This document shows, piece after piece, positions 2,693-40,795 of a stretch of DNA of 58,530 nt (the stretch's first letter is position 1; each line of letters opens with the position of its first letter). The position numbers were made by a program, and so were the translations under genes. The DNA is taken from contig CALVJN010000007.1 in the NCBI GenBank assembly GCA_944332205.1, forward strand, positions 1 to 58,530, given 5' to 3'. This DNA comes from an uncultured Bacilli bacterium (GTDB lineage Bacteria > Bacillota_I > Bacilli_A > RF39 > UBA660). A model generated the notes under the pieces. The model worked only from the letters and a program-made list of their open reading frames with translations, was not told the origin of the DNA and ran no database searches.

Positions 2693-5600
2693 ATGTACGA
2701 AAATAAGTATATATTGGGATTAGATATTGGAATATCATCAGTTGGATGGGCATTATTAGCTGTTGATGAAAATAATAATCCATGTCGTATAATCGATGTT
2801 GGAAGCAGAATTTTTACTCCAGGAGAAGAAACAAGTGGCGAGAGTAAAGCTAAAGAAAGAAGAGAAAGAAGAGGAGCCAGAAGAGTAACTAGGAGAAGAG
2901 AATTTAGAATAGATCGTGTTAGAAATTTGTTATATGAAAATAATTATTTAAAAGGAAATATTGATGAAAAAAAATTAATATCAGAAAAAAATATAGAGTT
3001 AACTAAAATATATAGTAAGATGATTGAAAACTATTATAAATCACACCATACTAATCCATATATATTAAAGGTAGAGGCTTTATATAGAAAACTAACTGAC
3101 GAGGAATTATCAATAATATTAGTACATTATGCTAAAAAAAGAGGATATAAATCTAATAGAGATGAAAAATCTAATGAAAAAGATAATGGAAGAGTAATTT
3201 CAGCAATAAAAGAAAATGAAAACATAATTAAAGAAAAAAACTATGAAACAATATCGGAAATGTATATAAAAGATTCAAAATTTAAAAATAAAATTAAAAA
3301 TGGACCAGATGATTATAAAGTATCTGTGACAAGAGAAATGTACGAAAAAGAAATAAATAAAGTATTAGATACTCAAATTAAATTTGGACTTATTAATGAA
3401 AATTTTAAAAATGAATATTTAAATATCTGGAAAAGTCAAAGACATTATTCAGAAGGACCAGGTTATTATTATGAAATAATTGATGGTAAAAAAGAGAAAA
3501 AAAGATCACCATATGGTGGTAACTTGATTGAAAGAATGGTAGGAAAGTGTATATTTGATGAAAATCCTCGTGCACCTAAGTTTGCACCTAGTTCAGAAAT
3601 ATTTGTGGGACTTTCTAAATTAATAAATTTAAGATATAAAGAAAATGAAGATGATTATAAAATTTTAACTAAAGAACAAATTAAAGAAATATTAGAAGTT
3701 GCTAAAGATAAAAATGAAATTAAATATAGTTTAGTTTGTAAAATAATCGGTAATGATAATATTAAATTTAAAAGTTTGCAATTGACTAAAAAAGAATACA
3801 TTAAAGTAATAGATGAATTAAAGAAGAAGTTAGAAATACCTAAAGATAAAAGAGTAGATATAAATTCACTAAGCACAGAAGAGAAAAATATATATGATGA
3901 ATTATATAATAAAGCTTTATATAATAAAACATTATTTGAATTAAAAGGATATCATGAATTAAGAAAATTAATGGAAAAATTCTATACAAAAGAAGAATGG
4001 ATTAATATTAAGGACAATATAGATGTTCTTGATGAATTAGCAAAATTATGTACTAATTACAAAACTAATGATGATATAAAAAATGCTATAGACAATTCAA
4101 CTATTATTCCTAATAAATATAATAATATAGAATTTATAGATAACTTACCAAATTTTAAAGATCATTTAATGTTATCAACTGAATTAATAAAAAAACTTAT
4201 TCCTATAATGTTAGATGGAAAAAAATATGATGAAGCAATGCAAGAGCTAAATTATTCACATTCTAATATATACAAAAACAAAGTAAAACATGATTTATTA
4301 TTACCAATAAATAGTGTTAGTACTATTAAAAATCAAAGAGTAATAAGATCATTATCGCAAGCAAGAAAAATATTAAATGCGATTATAAAAAAGTATGGTT
4401 CTCCTAAAATAATAAATATTGAAACAGCAAGAGAACTCGCAAAGACAGTAAAAGAAAGAAGAGAAATAGAAAAGTATCAATTAGAAAGAAAAGAAGAAAA
4501 TGATAAAAATAAGAAATTTTTAATGGAACTAGGAATATTTACTTCGATAGATAAAATTACTAGTAATGATTTATTAAAATATCGTTTGTGGAAAGAACAA
4601 AAAGAATGTTGTAGTTATAGTCAAAAAATAATATCTATAACGGATTTGTTCAATAATAATAAAGTTCAAATAGATCATATTTTACCATATTCTAGAACAT
4701 TTGATGATAATTATTTAAACAAAACTTTAGTATTTACTAAGGAAAATCAAGATAAAAGAGAAAGAACACCTTATGAATGGTTTGGAAATACAAGTAAATG
4801 GGATAATTATGAAAGCTTTATCAATAGCTTAGAAATACCACCTAGAAAGAAAGATAATTATTTAATGAAAAACTTGGATACTGATACTGAAAGAGCCATG
4901 AGAGAGCAAAATTTAAATGATACAAAATATATAAGTCGTGAATTATCATCTATAATTAAAGCATATTTAAATGTTGAAAAAGTAAATATGTATTCAGGTA
5001 GCTTAACAGCTAAGTTAAGAGCAAGATGGGGATTTAATCGTTTGACACATAGTTATATATCTAAAAATTATATAATGCCTAGAGATATGAAAGAAGACAT
5101 AAATAAAGATAGGGAAAATCATTTACACCACGCTATGGACGCTTTAGTAATTGCTTCAATAACAAAATCATTAGAATATAAAATAACTTTATATGAAAAA
5201 TTTAGTAGACATATTGATGGCTTAACTGAAAATCAAATTAAAAATTTAACAAATGATGATATAGAAAAGTACAAAGGAACTTATTATGATGATGAAACTG
5301 GAGAGATAAAAGAAACAGACTTAAAAGATTATATAAGAAAACAAATAGTAAAAGAACATATTACTTATGGAAAATACAATATTGCCAAACTAGAATTCCC
5401 AACTCCTTATGATAATTTTGTTGAAGAAGCAAAAATAAGAGTATATGAGCAAAATGAACAACTATTAAAAGAACATTTAAAAAAATTCAATACCTATCCG
5501 GATCAAGAAATTAAAAATATAAAAGTTTTAACGCCGTCATTAGCAAAGCCAAAATTATCGGGACAAATGCATGAAGAAACTTATTATGGAATAAAAAAAG

Positions 5601-6331
5601 ATGAAAACAATGTAATATTATATAAAACACTTAAGACACCACTTACAAAAGTTAAAAGAAAAGATTTAGAAAATATCCCAGATAGATTATCTGGATCAAA
5701 AGATATTTATAATGCTTTAGTGAATTGGTTTGGAGATAAAGAAACTGGAGAAGATGCCCTAAAAGCTAACAATGGAAAATATCCAATAAATTCAAATGAT
5801 AAAGAGCAAAAGGAAATAAGAAAAATAAAATTATATTATCCATATAAGAATACAGGTCATTTTATAAATGGTAGTAATGTTGAAAAAGGAGATATTTATC
5901 AAATAGATATATTGAAATCTAAAGATAAAAATGATGATAAACTATATTTTGTTGCTTACGATTTATTTGATTTGAAAAAAATAAAAAATAATGATTATAA
6001 TTTTAATATAAAAGTTGAATATGGGCAAAGTGAAAAATATATTATTACAACTTATAAAAGCATGATGAATGAATATAATAACATTTTAAAATTAAATAAA
6101 AATGATTTAATAAGAATTGAGAACAAAGATGGTAAAGAAAGTATTGGCTATGTGGTTGGAGGATCAAGTGGCACTCTTGAGATTAAAAGCAAAATAGGTG
6201 ATGGTTATGATCTGATAGGAAAAAACAAATTATTTAGTAATATTAATAAACGATATAAAATTACAATATCAACAATTAAATCTATAGATAAGTTATCAAT
6301 TAATTTATTAGGAAAAATAAATGGGATATAG
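2693..6331 (+). CDS. cas9: CRISPR-associated endonuclease Cas9 (type II-A)
   Basis: A 1212-residue RNA-guided DNA endonuclease. All catalytic parts look intact. RuvC-I has Asp11 in LGLDIGISSVGW. The arginine-rich bridge helix lies at about residues 53-80. RuvC-II has Glu577 in INIETARELA. HNH has Asp661-His662 in VQIDHILPYS, with Asn676 and Asn685. RuvC-III has His812-His813 and Asp816 in HLHHAMDALVIA. The C-terminal 350 residues should form the PAM-interacting region. The size lies between the compact (about 1050-1120) and the long (about 1370) type II-A enzymes. It heads a cas9-cas1-cas2 operon and overlaps cas1 by 11 bp, so translational coupling is likely. Confidence 0.98.
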   Translation: MYENKYILGLDIGISSVGWALLAVDENNNPCRIIDVGSRIFTPGEETSGESKAKERRERRGARRVTRRREFRIDRVRNLLYENNYLKGNIDEKKLISEKNIELTKIYSKMIENYYKSHHTNPYILKVEALYRKLTDEELSIILVHYAKKRGYKSNRDEKSNEKDNGRVISAIKENENIIKEKNYETISEMYIKDSKFKNKIKNGPDDYKVSVTREMYEKEINKVLDTQIKFGLINENFKNEYLNIWKSQRHYSEGPGYYYEIIDGKKEKKRSPYGGNLIERMVGKCIFDENPRAPKFAPSSEIFVGLSKLINLRYKENEDDYKILTKEQIKEILEVAKDKNEIKYSLVCKIIGNDNIKFKSLQLTKKEYIKVIDELKKKLEIPKDKRVDINSLSTEEKNIYDELYNKALYNKTLFELKGYHELRKLMEKFYTKEEWINIKDNIDVLDELAKLCTNYKTNDDIKNAIDNSTIIPNKYNNIEFIDNLPNFKDHLMLSTELIKKLIPIMLDGKKYDEAMQELNYSHSNIYKNKVKHDLLLPINSVSTIKNQRVIRSLSQARKILNAIIKKYGSPKIINIETARELAKTVKERREIEKYQLERKEENDKNKKFLMELGIFTSIDKITSNDLLKYRLWKEQKECCSYSQKIISITDLFNNNKVQIDHILPYSRTFDDNYLNKTLVFTKENQDKRERTPYEWFGNTSKWDNYESFINSLEIPPRKKDNYLMKNLDTDTERAMREQNLNDTKYISRELSSIIKAYLNVEKVNMYSGSLTAKLRARWGFNRLTHSYISKNYIMPRDMKEDINKDRENHLHHAMDALVIASITKSLEYKITLYEKFSRHIDGLTENQIKNLTNDDIEKYKGTYYDDETGEIKETDLKDYIRKQIVKEHITYGKYNIAKLEFPTPYDNFVEEAKIRVYEQNEQLLKEHLKKFNTYPDQEIKNIKVLTPSLAKPKLSGQMHEETYYGIKKDENNVILYKTLKTPLTKVKRKDLENIPDRLSGSKDIYNALVNWFGDKETGEDALKANNGKYPINSNDKEQKEIRKIKLYYPYKNTGHFINGSNVEKGDIYQIDILKSKDKNDDKLYFVAYDLFDLKKIKNNDYNFNIKVEYGQSEKYIITTYKSMMNEYNNILKLNKNDLIRIENKDGKESIGYVVGGSSGTLEIKSKIGDGYDLIGKNKLFSNINKRYKITISTIKSIDKLSINLLGKINGI

Positions 6332-7211
6332 ACAAGTTATTATTAAAAAAAGTGAAAAAATACATTTTGAAGATAATCAATTAGTAATAAAAAAAGAAGA
6401 AACTACTACAAAAGTACCTTTAGAAGATATAAATTTTGTTTTAATAGAGGATTCTACTACAATTATAACTACCAGGTTATTAGCAGAATTTGGAAAAAAC
6501 GCAATTTCATTAATTATATGTGATGAAAAATTTGAACCGACTTCAATAATGTATCCTTATAATTACCATTTTAAACAGTTAGATGTATTTAATAATCAAT
6601 TGAAAATAGACAATGACATAAAAAATGAATTATGGAATCAAATTGTTAAAAAGAAAATAGAAAATAGTATTAGAGTATTGGAAATGACTTCAAAAGAAGA
6701 AATTCCAATCTCTAAATTAACTAGTTATTTAGATGAAATAATAGAAGGCGATATAAAAAATAGAGAAGGCATATCTGCCAAAATGTATTTCCGAAGTTTA
6801 TTTGGAAATGAATTTATTAGGTTTTATGATGATGCAATAAATTCTGCATTAAATTATGGATATACAATTATAGTAAGTGCTATAATTAGAAATTTAGCTG
6901 TTTTTGGATTGAATACATACTTGGGAATACACCATAATTCTAAAATTAATAATTTTAATTTGGCATACGATTTATTAGAACCTTATAGAAGTATAGTGGA
7001 TAAATTTGTATATGACTATAAAGATGATATTTGTTGTCCATTAACATTTGAATTTAGAAAAAAATTAATTAATCTTTTAAATAAAGAAATATTACATAAT
7101 AATAAAAAATATACTATTGAATATAGTATAAATTTACTTATAAAAAGCTATATAAAATCTTTTTCTACTGGTGAAATTATTTTGGATTTACCAACTATAA
7201 TATATGAATAA
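6321..7211 (+). CDS. cas1: CRISPR-associated endonuclease Cas1
   Basis: A 296-residue Cas1 of the type II-A kind. With Cas2 it forms the integrase that inserts new spacers at the leader end of the array. The three metal ligands are visible by position and context: Glu149 (in REGISAKMYF), His205 (in GIHHNSK) and Glu220 (in YDLLEPYR). The ATG lies inside the end of cas9 (11-bp overlap) and the 3' end overlaps cas2 by 8 bp, so all three are one translation-coupled operon. Confidence 0.97.
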   Translation: MGYRQVIIKKSEKIHFEDNQLVIKKEETTTKVPLEDINFVLIEDSTTIITTRLLAEFGKNAISLIICDEKFEPTSIMYPYNYHFKQLDVFNNQLKIDNDIKNELWNQIVKKKIENSIRVLEMTSKEEIPISKLTSYLDEIIEGDIKNREGISAKMYFRSLFGNEFIRFYDDAINSALNYGYTIIVSAIIRNLAVFGLNTYLGIHHNSKINNFNLAYDLLEPYRSIVDKFVYDYKDDICCPLTFEFRKKLINLLNKEILHNNKKYTIEYSINLLIKSYIKSFSTGEIILDLPTIIYE

Positions 7212-7524
7212 ATTTATGAGAATAATAGTAATGTTTGACTTACCAGTTATAACTGAAAAAGAAAAAAGTATAGCTACTAAATTTAGAAAGTTTTTATTAG
7301 ATGATGGATATATAATGATGCAATATTCTGTATATTCTAGAATATGCAAAAATAATGATGATTTAAGTAAACATATTAATAGAATAAAATGTCATTGTCC
7401 AAAAAAAGGAAATATTAGATTATTACAAATTACTGAAAAGCAATATAATAACATGATAATATTTTCAGGAATAAAGAAAGTAGAAGAAGAAATATCAATA
7501 GAAAATTTATTGATTTTTGAATAA
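7204..7524 (+). CDS. cas2: CRISPR-associated protein Cas2
   Basis: A 106-residue Cas2 with the ferredoxin-like fold. The first strand IIVMFDLPV carries the conserved Asp12, and the amphipathic helix with FRKFLLDDGY follows. Cas2 dimers bridge two Cas1 dimers in the spacer integration complex. The start overlaps the cas1 stop. A hairpin terminator begins two bases after the stop codon, so the + strand cas operon ends here and csn2 is not part of it. Confidence 0.96.
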   Translation: MNKFMRIIVMFDLPVITEKEKSIATKFRKFLLDDGYIMMQYSVYSRICKNNDDLSKHINRIKCHCPKKGNIRLLQITEKQYNNMIIFSGIKKVEEEISIENLLIFE

Positions 7525-7642
7525 AAAAAAGCAGGATTTAACCTGCTTTTTGTGATCTTTATGGTTAGATCAAACCTAAGGCATTATGCCTTATTACAGA
7601 AACCTGTAAACTTTTAGTAATGTATGTCCTAATTATCAGGAC
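7523..7642 (-). ncRNA. tracrRNA
   Basis: On the - strand, about 120 nt: a 5' hairpin GTCCTGATAATTAGGAC (7642-7626); an anti-repeat (7625-7593) complementary to almost the whole 36-nt CRISPR repeat; the nexus hairpin AAGGCATAATGCCTT (7592-7578); a segment that may fold as a further hairpin; and a terminator hairpin ending in a U tract. Aligned to the repeat, 30 of 36 positions match. Four of the six differences become G-U wobble pairs in RNA. The anti-repeat runs directly into an AAGGC nexus, as in known type II-A tracrRNAs, which fixes the direction. Confidence 0.92.
7526..7551. terminator. Bidirectional terminator shared by the cas operon and the tracrRNA
   Basis: AAAAAGCAGG (7526-7535) pairs with CCTGCTTTTT (7542-7551) across a 6-nt loop. 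Read on + it ends cas9-cas1-cas2. Read on - it ends the tracrRNA with a U-rich tail (complement of the A run at 7523-7530). Confidence 0.85.
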
Positions 7643-7648
7643 AAACTA

Positions 7649-7678
7649 ATTATATAATATTTCTTCTATATTAGTCAA
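7649..7678 (-). promoter_or_regulatory. tracrRNA promoter inside the end of csn2
   Basis: On the - strand TTGACT (7678-7673), an 18-nt spacer and TATAAT (7654-7649) form a near-consensus housekeeping promoter. Transcription should start near 7642, at the first base of the tracrRNA 5' hairpin. The -35 box is built from the last codons and stop of csn2 (ATT GAC TAA). Confidence 0.8.
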
Positions 7679-8711
7679 TAAATTGCTTACATATTTCTAG
7701 AAAAAGTTTTTGTATATTTTTACTATCACATATAATATATTCACATGTTATGTTACTAGGTTTCGATAATACTACTTTTATGTATGTTGAATTGAGAATT
7801 TTACTAATAAAATGAGGATAAATATTAAATATATTTTTCTTAATATTTATAATTTCATCTTGTAATATTAAATTTTCATTTTCCAAACAAAAAATATTAA
7901 AATCAACATCATTATGATATTCATTTTTTAATAAATATAATTTGATTGCCTCATCTATTTTATTAAGTGACAATAATTTATTTGTTAATTTATATACACT
8001 AAATTTTTCAAGGTTTATATATTCAAATATGTTAGAACTAGTTGTTAATATAAAATGACAGTTATCATTAGACATTTTATTAATATCATTTAGCAGATTT
8101 ATTTTTTCATTGGAATTTAAATATGCATCAAAATTATTTATAATAATAATATTTTTCTTATCTAAATTGTTTTTAATATCTAAAAAATATAATTTATATA
8201 ATAATTTTCTCTTAGTAGACTTAGTAACATCATTACTATTTATTAACATATCATCTATATAAATATTTGTAAACTTATCAATAATTGAATTTATATCAGG
8301 AATTTCAATTTCAAAAGAAAGATTATTATCACTAAATTTATTTATTTTCTTATCAAGTAAAGTATTTACTTTATTATCTATAATATCAAAAATTTCATTA
8401 GTATAATTTATTAATTTATCAGTATTAATTTTATTTATTATATCGTTATATATTAGCTGCTTTAAAGTATTATTTTTAGTAAATTTAAATTCTTTTGAAA
8501 AATCATTTTCTTCATCTATATACACTATATTAAAATCATTTGAATTTATTTTATTTCCATTAATAAGAATGTTATTCATTCTACCATTAAATCCATCAAT
8601 TAAATTATTAATAAAATTAATTTTATATAATGAATCTTGACCAAATATAATAGCATTGTTATCTAAATTAATTATAAAATCTTGAAAATTATAGTTAAAA
8701 GTTATTTCCAT
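7671..8711 (-). CDS. csn2: Csn2-like spacer-acquisition protein (long form), on the opposite strand
   Basis: A 346-residue protein between the tracrRNA and the array. Csn2 proteins form ring-shaped tetramers that bind DNA ends and are needed for type II-A spacer acquisition. The fold is a degenerate P-loop ATPase. Here the N-terminal NNAIIFGQDSLYKINFI replaces a true Walker A, and a Walker-B-like strand IIIINNFDAYL with a following HFILTTSS strand is visible near residues 190-230. The length fits the long Csn2 group (about 350) known from Streptococcus thermophilus CRISPR1. The ATG at 8711 follows GGTGATC; the GTG at 8723 overlaps that site and is rejected. Family assignment rests mainly on context, length and these motifs. 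Confidence 0.75.
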   Translation of the reverse strand: MEITFNYNFQDFIINLDNNAIIFGQDSLYKINFINNLIDGFNGRMNNILINGNKINSNDFNIVYIDEENDFSKEFKFTKNNTLKQLIYNDIINKINTDKLINYTNEIFDIIDNKVNTLLDKKINKFSDNNLSFEIEIPDINSIIDKFTNIYIDDMLINSNDVTKSTKRKLLYKLYFLDIKNNLDKKNIIIINNFDAYLNSNEKINLLNDINKMSNDNCHFILTTSSNIFEYINLEKFSVYKLTNKLLSLNKIDEAIKLYLLKNEYHNDVDFNIFCLENENLILQDEIINIKKNIFNIYPHFISKILNSTYIKVVLSKPSNITCEYIICDSKNIQKLFLEICKQFID

Positions 8712-8794
8712 TTTGATCACCAATTAAATTATATATAAAATTTTAAATACTTTAAATATTAAAACTGCTAAAAGTATGATATAATTACTTTAAG
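8712..8794 (+). promoter_or_regulatory. CRISPR leader
   Basis: An 83-bp AT-rich leader lies between the divergent csn2 start and the first repeat. A TGATATAAT (about 8778-8786) just before repeat 1 is a good extended -10 for the array. Repeats decay at the far end, so this side is the leader where new spacers enter. Promoters for csn2 (-) and the array (+) must share these 83 bp. Confidence 0.7.
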
Positions 8795-9622
8795 GTTACA
8801 GGACCCTGTAGATTTTTAGTAATGTATGACGTTTCAGTTTTCGTTCCTAATAATAACTTTGTTACAGGACCCTGTAGATTTTTAGTAATGTATGACTTAA
8901 AGATTTACGAGAGAATAATAAGCAATGTTACAGGACCCTGTAGATTTTTAGTAATGTATGACCTTGTGTCATTATGTTTTGCATTTGTTGAGGTTACAGG
9001 ACCCTGTAGATTTTTAGTAATGTATGACGGCAATTGAGACAGTAAAGCTCAATTTTGACGTTACAGGACCCTGTAGATTTTTAGTAATGTATGACTTAGA
9101 TGGTATGATTATGATACTACTTCTAGTTACAGGACCCTGTAGATTTTTAGTAATGTATGACCTGGCTAGGACTTAAATAATCTATCCCAGAGTTACAGGA
9201 CCCTGTAGATTTTTAGTAATGTATGACCGCACTGCGTTTGTTATGATAGTCGAAAAAGTTACAGGACCCTGTAGATTTTTAGTAATGTATGACCTAGTGT
9301 AGGATTTAATCCAGTAGTAAATGGTTACAGGACCCTGTAGATTTTTAGTAATGTATGACGGGAATTAAGATACTTTAATTTGTTCAAATGTTACAGGACC
9401 CTGTAGATTTTTAGTAATGTATGACGTGGTGTATTTGTACTATCTTCATCAATTGGTTACAGGACCCTGTAGATTTTTAGTAATGTATGACCATTATGTC
9501 TAACAATATGGTTTGCCACATGTTACAGGACCCTGTAGATTTTTAGTAATGTATACCAATTATATTTTTGAAAAAGAAGCACCAGAGTTACAAGACCCTG
9601 TAGATTTTTAGTAATGTATGAC
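8795..9622 (+). CRISPR. CRISPR array, 13 repeats and 12 spacers, type II-A
   Basis: The repeat is 36 bp, beginning GTTACAGGACCCTGTAGA and ending TAGTAATGTATGAC. Starts are 8795, 8861, 8927, 8993, 9060, 9126, 9192, 9258, 9324, 9390, 9456, 9522 and 9587. Eleven spacers are 30 nt and spacer 4 (9029-9059) is 31 nt. Repeats 1-11 are identical. Repeat 12 has lost one G near its end (35 nt) and repeat 13 has one G-to-A change. Direction is + because degeneration is at the right end and because the repeat pairs with the tracrRNA only in this sense. An apparent 71-codon ORF at 8822-9037 is an artefact of the repeats. Confidence 0.99.
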
Positions 9623-10027
9623 TACTGCCTAGCTGTTTATTTTATAGTATAATGTATTATTTTGACTTTCTAGCATAGAATACTTAATGCCAGTATAATT
9701 GTATCTTTGATATTGCCAGTGTCATAATTACAAATGTTGACTTTTTTACTATATCTGATATACTTATATTACTTGGAAATGTTCCACTTAATTGGTATCT
9801 ACTATTAGTGCTTGCCAACGGAATATTTCCATTTTTTGTTTTAAAATTTTTACATTTAAAGAATATAATCTTTTAGAATTTTTCGAAGGGGTATCAATAT
9901 TTTCATTAGAATAAACATTGGAATTTATTACAACCCCCTGTAGATTTTTAGTAAAGTATGGCATTTCCGTGATTTATCTCTTGAACTCTAAGTTACAAGA
10001 CCCTGTAAAATTTTAATAATGTATAAT
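9623..10027 (+). repeat. Decayed CRISPR trailer with two degenerate repeats
   Basis: After repeat 13 comes about 300 bp without intact repeats (9623-9926), then two diverged repeats at 9927-9962 and 9992-10027 separated by a spacer-sized 29 bp. On the - strand the 300-bp part holds an interrupted open stretch near 9690-9830 with no recognised homology. The layout suggests that a longer array was interrupted or partly replaced, and that its old end then decayed. Confidence 0.8.
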
Positions 10028-10069
10028 AGACTCTTTTATTTAATAAAATATGTATTTAAGAGGTATATA

Positions 10070-10321
10070 ATGAAATATATAGTATTTATTAATATGTTAT
10101 CATTTCTTTTATATGGATTTGATAAATTATTAGCTAAAAAGAAGAAATTTAGAATAAGTGAAAAACTTCTCCTTTTTATTTCTATTATGGGTGGACCTTA
10201 TGGAGCTATTTTAGGAAGCAACATTTTTAAACATAAAACAAAAAAATTAAAATTTAATATTTTAAATAAGTCTATGGCTATTATTTGGAGTATTTATTTT
10301 CTATACTTAATTTTAAGATAA
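10070..10321 (+). CDS. DUF1294 family small membrane protein
   Basis: An 83-residue protein with about three hydrophobic segments. It shows the DUF1294 pattern: a first helix ending in YGFDKLLAKK, RISEKLLL, then GGPYGAILGSNIFKHKTKK and a C-terminal helix. The function of the family is unknown. The ATG at 10070 follows AGAGGT. An in-frame ATG at 10019 lies inside the last degenerate CRISPR repeat and lacks a ribosome site, so it is rejected. Confidence 0.8.
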   Translation: MKYIVFINMLSFLLYGFDKLLAKKKKFRISEKLLLFISIMGGPYGAILGSNIFKHKTKKLKFNILNKSMAIIWSIYFLYLILR

Positions 10322-10431
10322 TATATAATTGTATAATAATTATCAAAAAAATCATTATAAAATTATTTGAGTATTGCTATAAAATAAAAAAAATATTAAA
10401 ATATTTTTAGCACTATTTATAGGAGGAACTT

Positions 10432-11856
10432 ATGAAAAACAAAATGATTACGAGCCGTGATGAAGATTTTGCAAAATGGTATACAGATATAGTAAGAGCA
10501 GCACATTTAGCTGATTATTCTTCAGTTAAGGGATGTATTGTAATTGAACCAAACGGTTACGCAATTTGGGAAAAGATGCAAGAAATATTAGATAAAAAAT
10601 TTAAAGAACTAGGACATATTAATTGTCAAATGCCTCTTTTGATTCCAGAAAGTTTATTAAAAAAAGAAGGAGAATTAGTAGAAGGATTTGCTCCAGAAGT
10701 TGCTTGGGTAACAGAAGGTGGAGAAAAAAAACTTGAAGAAAGATTATGTATTCGACCAACTAGTGAAACAATGTTTTCTGATTATTACTCAACACATGTA
10801 AAATCATATCGAGATTTACCATTATTATATAATCAATGGTGTAATGTTTTAAGGTGGGAAAAAGAAACAAGACCTTTTTTACGAAGCAGAGAATTTTTAT
10901 GGCAAGAAGGACATACTATTCATGCAACAGAAGAGGAAGCTATTAAAGAAACTAATCAAATGGTTGAAGTATATCGCTGGTTTCATAATGAAATTTTAGC
11001 AATACCATCTATTTGTGGCAAAAAAACTGAAAAAGAAAAATTTGCAGGAGCAGAATATACTCTTACTAATGAAGCGCTTATGTATAATGGAGTAGCCCTA
11101 CAAGCTGGTACATCACATTATTTTGGTCAGAAGTTTTCTAAAGCCTATGACATTAAATTTACTAATCAAGATAATCAAGAAGAATATGCTTATCAAACTT
11201 CCTGGGGAACTACTACTAGAATGATAGGTGGTTTAATTATGGTTCATAGTGATGATTATGGACTAGTATTACCACCAAGAATAGCCCCAAAACAAGTAGT
11301 TATAATACCAATAGGTAATGATGAAGAAGTAATAAATCTTACTAAAAAATATAAAGAATTATTAAATGAAAACAATATAACAGCATATATTGATGATAGT
11401 AATAAATCACCAGGTTTTAAATTTGCAGAAGCTGAAGTTAATGGGATACCATTAAGAATAGAAATAGGTAAAAGAGATTTAGATCAAGGAAAAATAACAT
11501 TTACAAGACGTGATACTCGTGAAAAAATTCAAAGTGAAATTGAAATAGATATAGTCTCTTATGTTGGAGATTTATTAGAAATAATCCAAAAAGATATGTA
11601 TGAAAAAGCTAAAGAAAGAAGAGATTCTTTAACCTTTGAAGCTCACAATTTAAAAGAAATGGAAAAAATATTAAATACACAACCAGGTTTTATTCATGCT
11701 ATGTGGTGTGGTAATAAAGAATGTGAAGAAAAAATAAAGGAAATTAAAGGATGTAAATCTAGATGTGTTTTAGAAAATGCTAAACCAATAGACGATAAAT
11801 GTGTTTGTTGTGGTAAAAAAGCAAAAGAATTAGTAGTTTGGGGGATTCAATACTAG
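10432..11856 (+). CDS. proS: Prolyl-tRNA synthetase (archaeal/eukaryotic-like type)
   Basis: A 474-residue class II aminoacyl-tRNA synthetase that charges tRNA-Pro in the cytoplasm. Motif 2 and the Pro-binding region are seen in CIRPTSETMF, WEKETRPFLRSREFLWQEGHT and the later TSWGTTTRMIGG. The short length lacks the bacterial editing insertion (about 570 residues). The tail with a Cys cluster (GCKSRC...CVCCG) and a terminal Tyr marks the ProS type 3 group. It has the strong ribosome site AGGAGG. No T-box was found in its 110-bp upstream gap, unlike glyS downstream. Confidence 0.97.
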   Translation: MKNKMITSRDEDFAKWYTDIVRAAHLADYSSVKGCIVIEPNGYAIWEKMQEILDKKFKELGHINCQMPLLIPESLLKKEGELVEGFAPEVAWVTEGGEKKLEERLCIRPTSETMFSDYYSTHVKSYRDLPLLYNQWCNVLRWEKETRPFLRSREFLWQEGHTIHATEEEAIKETNQMVEVYRWFHNEILAIPSICGKKTEKEKFAGAEYTLTNEALMYNGVALQAGTSHYFGQKFSKAYDIKFTNQDNQEEYAYQTSWGTTTRMIGGLIMVHSDDYGLVLPPRIAPKQVVIIPIGNDEEVINLTKKYKELLNENNITAYIDDSNKSPGFKFAEAEVNGIPLRIEIGKRDLDQGKITFTRRDTREKIQSEIEIDIVSYVGDLLEIIQKDMYEKAKERRDSLTFEAHNLKEMEKILNTQPGFIHAMWCGNKECEEKIKEIKGCKSRCVLENAKPIDDKCVCCGKKAKELVVWGIQY

Positions 11857-29837: not shown

Positions 29838-30953
29838 TTATATATAGAAAGAGAGCAAGTTCGTAAGCTGTGGCTTAGCCGCTCCTTTTTTTGTTACCTT
29901 CCTAAATGAAGAATTAACAGATTCAATTGCATTTGTTGTATACATAACCTTTCTTATAATACTTGGATAATCAAATAGTTGTTCTACATATTTAAAATTT
30001 CTTTTCCATACATCAACGGCACCAGTATATTTACTCCATGTACTTTTAAACTTTTCAAACTCATTTTGGGCTGTTTTTAAGTTAGGAGCACCATATATCA
30101 ATTTAAGGTTAGATGTGAATTTCTTATAGTCTTTACTTGGCACATATTTTAAAGAGTTTCTTATTAAATGTACAATACATCTTTGTACTATAACACCTTT
30201 AAATATTTCTTTTGCACCATCTTCTAATCCACTTACACCATCCATTGATATAAAGAATATATCTTCCACACCTCTTTGTTTTATTTCATCAAATATTTGC
30301 ATCCATGAATGTTTAGATTCGGTTTCGTTTAACCATATACCAAGAACATCTTTTTTACCATTTATATCATATCCTAGAGTTGTATAAATGGCACTTTCTT
30401 TTGTTTCATATTCGTAACGCATGGTAACGTACATACAATCTACAAATACAAACGGATAACATTTCTTAAGTCTTCTAGACTGCCATTCATTTAACTCTTC
30501 TAATACACAGTCTGTTATGTTTGATATTGTTTCGTGTGATACTTTAAATCCATATATATCTTCTATTGTTTTTGATATATCTCTTTGGCTCATTCCTTTA
30601 GCATACATGGAAAGGACTTTCTTATCTATATCTGATATATCCTTTGTCCTTTTAGGAATAATTTGAGGTTCAAAAGAACCATCTCTATCCCTTGGAACAT
30701 CAATAGTCATTTCACCCATAGAAGTTTTTACGTTTTTTGTTATATAACCATTTCTTCTATTATCGGTTTGTTTTTCATTTTTATTGTTACTGACATAACC
30801 CAAATGTTCATTCATTTCACCTTGAAGCATTGCTTCAAATATTGGTGAAAATACATCTTTTAAGGCGTCCTGTACATCTTTGGCTGTCTCTGGTTGGTAT
30901 GCTTCTATTATTGCTTTTACTAATTCGTTTTTCGTTTTATTTTTACTTCTCAT
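29838..30953 (-). CDS. IS256-family transposase, C-terminally truncated
   Basis: A 371-residue mutator-type DDE transposase. The N-terminal region with LKDVFSPIFEAMLQGEMNEHLGY, the first catalytic Asp in YPFVFVDCMYV (about residue 172), the second in FFISMDGVSGLED, the CIVHLIRNSLKYVPSKDYK block and the final Glu in YTTNAIESVNSSFRK are present. Full-length relatives continue some 25-30 residues beyond TKKGA. Here the frame runs instead through a hairpin-rich segment (29845-29880) and stops. All three acidic residues remain, but the missing tail and missing IS end argue against activity. Confidence 0.88.
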   Translation of the reverse strand: MRSKNKTKNELVKAIIEAYQPETAKDVQDALKDVFSPIFEAMLQGEMNEHLGYVSNNKNEKQTDNRRNGYITKNVKTSMGEMTIDVPRDRDGSFEPQIIPKRTKDISDIDKKVLSMYAKGMSQRDISKTIEDIYGFKVSHETISNITDCVLEELNEWQSRRLKKCYPFVFVDCMYVTMRYEYETKESAIYTTLGYDINGKKDVLGIWLNETESKHSWMQIFDEIKQRGVEDIFFISMDGVSGLEDGAKEIFKGVIVQRCIVHLIRNSLKYVPSKDYKKFTSNLKLIYGAPNLKTAQNEFEKFKSTWSKYTGAVDVWKRNFKYVEQLFDYPSIIRKVMYTTNAIESVNSSFRKVTKKGAAKPQLTNLLSFYI

Positions 30954-38557: not shown

Positions 38558-40795
38558 ATGAATATTAACAATTTAAAATTTGATAGCATTGATTCTGCAG
38601 CTAGTTATCTTTGGGGGCTTCCTAGTCATGGGGGATTTCAAAGTATAGAAAAAGCTAAAGAATCTGCAATAGACATGGCAGAAAGTGGTGTAATATCAGT
38701 TCCCGGATATGAAATTGTTGATACGAATACTGATATGTCAGGTACTATTTATACCAACGCTTCAAAAATTAATCAACCAACAGGTAATGCTGATTTTTTA
38801 AATATTGGAAGTGTAAATGAATTAGAGGATAAAACCGCTGGAACTATGTATGTTGTAAACACAGATATAGGAAGAGGAAATGAAGACTTTATTTTAACAT
38901 ATCAAGATGATGGTAGTTTTACATTAACAGCAACAAGCGATGGAAAAGAAATACCATATTCTTTAGCACCAAGTGATTCATCAATTAAAGTATATAATAT
39001 AAATGCATATAGGACAAAAGCGGACAATTATTCTACTTTGTCTAGTGAAACTTCTGACAGTACTTTAACTGCACGACTTAATGGTATTGGGTCTATTGAC
39101 AGACCAGACATCCATGATATATACATGCACAACACCCATATTACTCAAAGATCAGATTTATTAGATTTGCCATTAGTAGAAACTGGTGGAAGTGATAATA
39201 GAACATATAGTAGTTTTGAGGCAGCTACAAAGCGATATATGACATTAACGGGTGAAAGCGAAGTAATTGCTAAAGAAGAAGTGCAAAAAGCAATAGATTC
39301 AGGGGCAATAAGTATTTCAGATTCTGGTGATTATTCATACGAAACATCACTAACAAGAGAAGAGGCTATTCAGAAACTTACCAATAGTGGACAATGGTTG
39401 AGACAAGATGCGGAAATTTATGTTGATGCGTATGCAAAAGAGCATAATATAACTTATAATACAATACTAAAAGATAAATATTTTACAGGTAAATACGAAG
39501 AATGGTATAATGAATTAAAAGATATTGATTCTAATGCACTAGCTAACCAACTAAGATTAGATGTTGATAATCTTAAAATAGAATTTGAGAATGTAAAAAA
39601 TCAAATGGAAGAATGGCATGGTAATGCTGCCGATAAAGCTAAAGAAGCTATAGCCTGTATTTTAGGAAAATTTATAGTAACGATGGGCAATATTGAAAAT
39701 GCGTTAGAGCCAGCTTGCCTAGCCATAGTAGAAATACTTAAATATTTGGAAGAAATGAAAAAAGAAGATGAAATCTTACAAGAACTCCTTTTGCAATTAT
39801 CTGAGTTAAAAAGTAATGTGCCAGAAAAGACTTTAACATCAACAGAAGATGTCCCAAATGGTACTGATAAAAACGGAAAAACTAAATACAGAACAGTAAT
39901 ACATACATATACTAATCCAGATTATATTGAATGGTCAAATAAAGTTTCAGAATTAGAAAAACAAATTGCTACCCAAAGAGAAAAACTAGATTTAATTGTT
40001 TCAAAAGTAGAAGAATATTATCAATTAATTCAAAATTATCAACAAGTTATAAAAGAGTTTTCATCATTTGTTGCACCTAGTGGATCTAATCATTACATGG
40101 TATCTAGTGCTGATAATATAGTAAATTATCACGATGAAATTATTAATCATTTTGAAGATTATACAAAAATGCCAGTTATTACTAATGCCTCGGATTACTC
40201 TGTAGGAGATTTTGTCTTATTTGATGATAGTTATGGAACTTTATACAAAATTGTTGAAGTGTTCAATGCTGATGGAAATGGATATTTGAAAATTATTGCT
40301 GTAGATAAAGATGGAAATCCATTGCCTGGAGCAGAAGTAATTACAATTTGGGATCCTAGAGAAATCGTTCCAGTTGGTGGAAATAAAGAACAACCTGGTG
40401 TTATAACGACACCGTCAGGTTCAACACCATCAAATCCAAATCCAGATCCAGATCCAGATCCAACACCAACTCCGACACCAACACCAACTCCGACACCAAC
40501 ACCAACGCCAACACCAACACCAACGCCGACACCAACACCGACACCAACACCAACGCCAACACCAACACCAACGCCGACACCAACGCCGACACCAACACCA
40601 ACACCAACGCCAACACCAACACCAACGCCTGAACCACCATTTGTTCCTGATACAGGAATTGGAAGAATTTTTGACAATGGTAAATCAATGTCATCAGTTG
40701 GATTAGCTGGTTTAGCAGGACTAGGTTTAGGTGCAGTAGGTTTGGGTGCAGCTCAATTAGCTGGTAAAAAAGAACATGATGAAAAAGATAACTAA
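38558..40795 (+). CDS. Large WXG-containing surface protein with Thr-Pro stalk and sortase-like tail
   Basis: A 745-residue protein. Residues 1-270 form an unrecognised domain. A helical region (about 310-500) has MEEWHGNAADKAKEAI, a W-x-G turn like that of WXG100/LXG proteins, and long coiled coils. Residues about 635-690 are a Thr-Pro repeat, a likely rigid wall-spanning stalk. The end reads FVPDTGIG, a 20-residue Gly/Ala/Leu hydrophobic segment and a KKEHDEKDN tail: the layout of an LPXTG sorting signal with Val for Leu. No N-terminal Sec signal is seen, which fits type VII-like export. A sortase gene lies 1.2 kb downstream. The function of the first domain is unknown. Confidence 0.75.
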   Translation: MNINNLKFDSIDSAASYLWGLPSHGGFQSIEKAKESAIDMAESGVISVPGYEIVDTNTDMSGTIYTNASKINQPTGNADFLNIGSVNELEDKTAGTMYVVNTDIGRGNEDFILTYQDDGSFTLTATSDGKEIPYSLAPSDSSIKVYNINAYRTKADNYSTLSSETSDSTLTARLNGIGSIDRPDIHDIYMHNTHITQRSDLLDLPLVETGGSDNRTYSSFEAATKRYMTLTGESEVIAKEEVQKAIDSGAISISDSGDYSYETSLTREEAIQKLTNSGQWLRQDAEIYVDAYAKEHNITYNTILKDKYFTGKYEEWYNELKDIDSNALANQLRLDVDNLKIEFENVKNQMEEWHGNAADKAKEAIACILGKFIVTMGNIENALEPACLAIVEILKYLEEMKKEDEILQELLLQLSELKSNVPEKTLTSTEDVPNGTDKNGKTKYRTVIHTYTNPDYIEWSNKVSELEKQIATQREKLDLIVSKVEEYYQLIQNYQQVIKEFSSFVAPSGSNHYMVSSADNIVNYHDEIINHFEDYTKMPVITNASDYSVGDFVLFDDSYGTLYKIVEVFNADGNGYLKIIAVDKDGNPLPGAEVITIWDPREIVPVGGNKEQPGVITTPSGSTPSNPNPDPDPDPTPTPTPTPTPTPTPTPTPTPTPTPTPTPTPTPTPTPTPTPTPTPTPTPTPTPTPTPEPPFVPDTGIGRIFDNGKSMSSVGLAGLAGLGLGAVGLGAAQLAGKKEHDEKDN
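40460..40629 (+). repeat. Thr-Pro coding microsatellite
   Basis: About 28 copies of a 6-bp unit CC(A/G)AC(A/G/T) coding for Pro-Thr. Third-base changes are patchy, as expected after repeated unit duplication and deletion. Units of 6 bp keep the frame, so length but not expression can vary. Long - strand frames here are shadows. Confidence 0.9.

Follow-up and report, generated by a model that had tools for sequence, protein, structure and literature searches.

In a type II-A CRISPR-Cas9 locus of an uncultured lineage of Bacilli, the end of csn2 overlaps the predicted promoter of the tracrRNA, and comparison of related loci shows that this overlap has long been kept as DNA, in three reading frames. 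It is this overlap, conserved through the lineage, rather than the inversion of csn2, that is the special feature of these loci. A protein-coding end would here double as the promoter of an essential partner of the guide RNA, and would have been kept in that role despite changes of reading frame and the inversion of a block. In this small-genome, AT-rich lineage the array, the leader, csn2 and the tracrRNA are arranged as a single block. We consider it likely that an autonomous tracrRNA promoter overlaps the end of csn2, and that the resulting tracrRNA is capped and ends at a terminator common with the cas operon.

Gene order and identity of csn2

The window, a stretch of 58,530 nucleotides, comes from a genome assembly of 1.25 Mb (G000) whose close relatives are metagenome-derived uncultured Bacilli, a lineage of uncultured gut bacteria. 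On its plus strand we identified cas9 (1212 aa, 2693..6331; TIGR01865, E 6.9e-171, with HNH_4 and RuvC_III), cas1 (296 aa, 6321..7211; TIGR03639, E 5e-83), cas2 (106 aa, 7204..7524; TIGR01573, E 1.8e-26), and a CRISPR array with the 36-nt repeat GTTACAGGACCCTGTAGATTTTTAGTAATGTATGAC (8795..9622). Elsewhere in the window, positions 29838-30953 hold a gene that, judged from its sequence, resembles a mutator-type (IS256-like) transposase, and positions 38558-40795 encode a protein of 745 aa that carries a long proline-threonine repeat close to the C-terminus.

On the minus strand, an open reading frame at 7671-8723 encodes 346 aa when read from the ATG at 8711 (7671..8711), with its stop codon at 7673-7671. 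An earlier, sequence-only reading of this DNA had taken this gene for csn2 and had named a profile search as the test of that identity; when this search was run, the PADLOC Csn2 profile PDLC01597 matched the protein with an E-value of 2.3e-85. The same profile also draws apparent ABC-ATPase genes at weak E-values, and matches were taken to E ~1e-12. Profile searches gave no match of the protein to any Pfam or NCBIfam model, and no relative of it was found in the viral contigs searched. In an AlphaFold2 model (pLDDT 83), the nearest solved chain, at rank 1, was 3zth_A, the long Csn2 Stu0660 of S. thermophilus (Z 15.2, 296 aligned residues, rmsd 6.2). GajA followed at Z 14.2, which is so close that the profile and the gene neighborhood, not the fold alone, identify the protein as Csn2. 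Its length agrees with that of the long form, Csn2b (~350 aa), and the modeled fold is predicted to be the ABC-ATPase-like fold of Csn2, although this fold is not exclusive to it.

Relatives were gathered by Csn2 and Cas1 searches, followed by gene mapping of their loci. One arrangement (A), with cas9-cas1-cas2 forward, tracrRNA and csn2 backward, then the leader and the array forward, is common to the window and to 15 relatives from the tree set, which together make up a single clade of the Cas1 tree (94/94). In a second arrangement (B), cas9-cas1-cas2 is forward, the array backward, and the leader is followed by csn2 and tracrRNA, both forward; it is carried by L068, in part by L070, and by G006, where it is split over two contigs. 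These loci lie at the base of the lineage in the Cas1 tree. Arrangement B is the block of array, leader, csn2 and tracrRNA flipped relative to cas9-cas1-cas2, with the csn2-tracrRNA tandem kept. Wherever csn2 adjoins the tracrRNA, csn2 comes first and on the same strand in all cases.

The inversion of csn2 noted in the sequence-only reading is real in the window but is no peculiarity of it, as csn2 is also inverted in L080, L081, L082, and L086, which represent three other families of the class; in these four loci the tracrRNA, where found, lies upstream of cas9. In six further loci (L079, L084, L113, L114, L117, and L118) csn2 is collinear. In another family, L083 has cas2, array, csn2 and tracrRNA all forward with a weak promoter match (9/12), which indicates that the tandem order can in some loci do without a promoter overlapping csn2. 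At L027 (G349:C8), csn2 and a tracrRNA stand beside housekeeping-like genes, the csn2 reading contains an in-frame TGA, and neither cas9 nor cas1 was found in this genome, which is 82% complete; this pair is perhaps a relic.

The end of csn2 and the predicted tracrRNA promoter

The predicted tracrRNA promoter of the window (7649..7678, minus strand) consists of a -35 box TTGACT (7678-7673), an 18-nt spacer and a -10 box TATAAT (7654-7649). As had been proposed, the -35 box is formed by the last codons and the stop of csn2: it sits in ATT GAC TAA (Ile, Asp, stop), and the stop codon contributes its first base as the final T. With 11 of 12 consensus positions, this promoter ranked first among the 56 promoter-like sites found in 6000-10500, where 45.8 were expected. 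The abundance of such sites could favor the view that the TTGACT at the csn2 stop arose by accident in A+T-rich DNA. In a control scan of 183 gene ends from the loci, 13 carried a sense promoter that scored 11/12 or better and spanned the stop codon; 12 of these ends belonged to csn2 and one to another gene, the lineage loci compared not being independent of one another. This comparison of csn2 tails with other gene ends, together with the recurrence of the promoter at csn2 tails in three frames, ruled out a chance origin, to which we assign next to no probability.

All csn2 tails read in the lineage carry either TTGACA or TTGACT as the -35 box, and TTGAC was invariant in 13/13 aligned rows. 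Its position relative to the stop varies, with -35 starts at -5 and -11 (frame 1), -30 and -39 (frame 0), and -1 (frame 2). In the subgroup of the window, csn2 terminates in ..ID*, with the final T of TTGACT coming from the stop codon. In L065-L076, csn2 extends for about 10 or more further codons (LLTDYEITDII* and similar), placing TTGACA, a 17-nt spacer and the -10 box wholly or almost wholly within the coding sequence in a different frame; in L068, the csn2 stop TGA itself lies inside TTGACA. Among the Leu codons of sampled window genes, 9% are TTG, the codon that TTGACA requires in this second subgroup. The same promoter plan was found in L027 and L028, whose Csn2 proteins have diverged (33% and 28% identity).

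These observations also bear on pure compaction, in which the csn2 stop drifted in a shrinking AT-rich genome and the overlap was kept only for the sake of the promoter. The genome is small (1.25 Mb), the distance from the start of the -35 box to the csn2 stop behind it varies between 1 and 39 bases while the promoter stays, as though it were anchored and the end of csn2 could move freely, and we found nothing decisive against this reading, which we regard as somewhat probable. It agrees with our explanation of an autonomous promoter overlapping csn2 and denies only that the tandem order brings a benefit.

The tracrRNA and transcription of the block

The tracrRNA of about 120 nt (7521..7642, minus strand; ends predicted) was recognized by a repeat-like match, its fold (z = -6.2 for 7642-7521) and orthologues. 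It sits directly behind the csn2 stop and is read in the same direction as csn2, in agreement with the sequence-only reading. From 5' to 3' it comprises a 5' hairpin, an anti-repeat (7594..7626, recognized as a repeat-like match), a nexus-like hairpin, a second hairpin and a terminator, and the duplex of array repeat and anti-repeat was computed at -44.1 kcal/mol. An Rfam search returned nothing above gathering, with weak matches only (E up to 5). The claim that one hairpin (7526..7551) closes both the cas operon on the plus strand and the tracrRNA on the minus strand was borne out as a prediction: with a 10-bp stem and a T-run on each strand, it scores as a terminator on both, among 4 terminator-like sites found where 0.4 were expected. 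This architecture offers a precise dual-RNA scheme for annotating the Cas9 systems of the lineage. Behind csn2 of L064 (OMVK01000003.1), we observed two tandem anti-repeats, the first without a nexus-like hairpin, which suggests a duplicated or decaying tracrRNA.

A transcript start near 7642 had been anticipated, and this position is base 7 after the -10 box, the predicted +1. The 5'-terminal hairpin GUCCUGAUAAUUAGGAC (7626..7642, minus strand) begins there and has a covarying stem in relatives. With the promoter picked without regard to the hairpin, 14 of 16 loci had a 5/5 stem whose first base was precisely base 7 after the -10 box, and in the remaining 2 the stem started one base earlier; shuffled controls had a mean of 1.0 and a maximum of 6 loci with a stem at base 7. 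Pairs were counted by script because MAFFT alignments misplaced the hairpin arms. Among 8 distinct arm pairs, 39/40 cells were paired (P 0.0002), with stems that vary by subgroup (GTCCT/AGGAC, ACATC/GATGT, ACGTT/AACGT, GCATT/AATGC, GTGTT/AACAC, and ATGCG/CGCAT) and a loop that is often of the GNRA type. Comparable hairpins directly precede the anti-repeat in L080, L082, and L086, and the hairpin is therefore a feature of the tracrRNA, not of the overlap. The tracrRNA of S. thermophilus CRISPR1 likewise begins with a hairpin. The compensating 5' hairpin of the lineage tracrRNA can be tested directly.

On the other side of csn2, its promoter and that of the array were said to share 83 bp, and we indeed found both candidates in the divergent region between the csn2 ATG and the first repeat at 8795 (8712..8794; csn2 on the minus strand, array on the plus strand). 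The csn2 promoter-like site is TTTAAA (8756-8751) and TATAAT (8733-8728) on the minus strand, and the predicted array promoter on the plus strand has an extended -10, TGATATAAT (8777-8785), which puts the predicted start of the pre-crRNA about 3 nt ahead of the first repeat. Relatives also have a conserved -10-like TATAAT here. The leader ends in CTTTAAG in the window (8788-8794), directly at the integration site, and in TTTGAG in most relatives; Yet the window and L059, whose cas genes are 99% identical, have no spacer in common among those compared between their arrays (8795-9622 and 6480-7141, respectively), which points to recent, fast spacer turnover and a system in use. About 300 nt past the array end lie two degenerate repeats (9927-9962 and 9992-10027), also seen in L059.

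In the mechanism that we propose, csn2 and the array would be transcribed in opposite directions from the common 83-bp leader, and the tracrRNA from its own strong housekeeping-type promoter, with the -35 box, and in one subgroup also the -10 box, inside the coding end of csn2. Transcription would start at the base of the short hairpin capping the RNA directly before the anti-repeat, and would end at the terminator that cas9-cas1-cas2 also meets from the opposite side. The 5' hairpin may protect the 5' end of the primary tracrRNA against degradation for as long as the repeat duplex has not been trimmed by RNase III, a step that would also remove the hairpin. In the promoter and terminator scan, the stretch from the csn2 stop to the tracrRNA was free of terminator-like sites, which makes read-through of csn2 likely, and csn2 mRNA running into the tracrRNA would be a second, minor source.

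Such read-through also speaks for regulatory coupling, the sequence-only proposal that csn2 transcription feeds or occludes the tracrRNA promoter. If read-through matters, spacer acquisition would be tied to guide supply, and the csn2-tracrRNA tandem does survive the block flip and is also present in L083 of another family. However, the lineage tracrRNA has its own near-consensus promoter and so should not depend on csn2 transcription, and in L080, L082, and L086 the tracrRNA is distant from csn2, showing that the pairing is no requirement of such systems. We therefore regard coupling as unlikely; our model needs none between acquisition, tracrRNA and crRNA supply, and compaction of a 1.25-Mb genome accounts for the packing equally well as occlusion or feeding. 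A bolder variant, which we hold to be quite doubtful, is that the tracrRNA forms the 3' end of the csn2 mRNA, and that pairing with pre-crRNA and cutting by RNase III in the presence of Cas9 consume the csn2 message and hence curb acquisition. If true, consumption of this message as guide complexes form would give the locus an inherent feedback by which immunity acts on spacer uptake.

Read-through would also yield a 5'-extended tracrRNA, which recalls tracr-L of S. pyogenes, an extended tracrRNA working as a natural single guide (PMC8616872, PMC11417352). The window would resemble the tracr-L / tracr-S locus (PMC11417352) in having a tracrRNA gene that could give transcripts of two lengths. 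A long form repressing the cas genes in this way would, however, need a guide-like and repeat-like upstream part, and the window has only the short hairpin directly upstream of the anti-repeat; beyond the array, the search turned up repeat-like sequence in two places only, the anti-repeat and the degenerate repeat at 9928. We consider such a guide very improbable here, and retain the capped tracrRNA with its own promoter as our explanation.

Comparison with known type II-A systems

The window holds the features that define type II-A, namely cas9, cas1 and cas2 of type II, csn2 and, by sequence, a tracrRNA with an anti-repeat. It lacks the typical, non-defining collinear operon, as csn2 lies on the opposite strand; cas9-cas1-cas2-csn2 is the usual description of such loci (PMC6882279), among which the position and orientation of the tracrRNA vary (PMC3936727). 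Among the papers searched, none was found to describe an inverted csn2 with a tracrRNA promoter in its end; an earlier mention, for instance in the classification literature, is possible.

The inverted csn2 loci of other families (L080, L081, L082, and L086) resemble the window in that cas2 and csn2 stand tail to tail and the array, where found, lies beyond csn2, and differ from it in the tracrRNA, which where found is upstream of cas9. Four Spiroplasma/Mycoplasma-like loci (L079, L113, L114, and L117), a name that we infer on grounds including TGA codons inside genes, have the profile PDLC01597 in common with the window; unlike in the window, their csn2 is collinear with and overlaps cas2, and the anti-repeat, where found, is elsewhere. 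The type II-A system of S. thermophilus CRISPR1 likewise combines cas9-cas1-cas2 with a long Csn2 (Csn2b) of about 350 aa (PMC3936727), whereas the window differs from it in its inverted csn2, in a tracrRNA directly behind csn2, and in a predicted tracrRNA promoter inside csn2.
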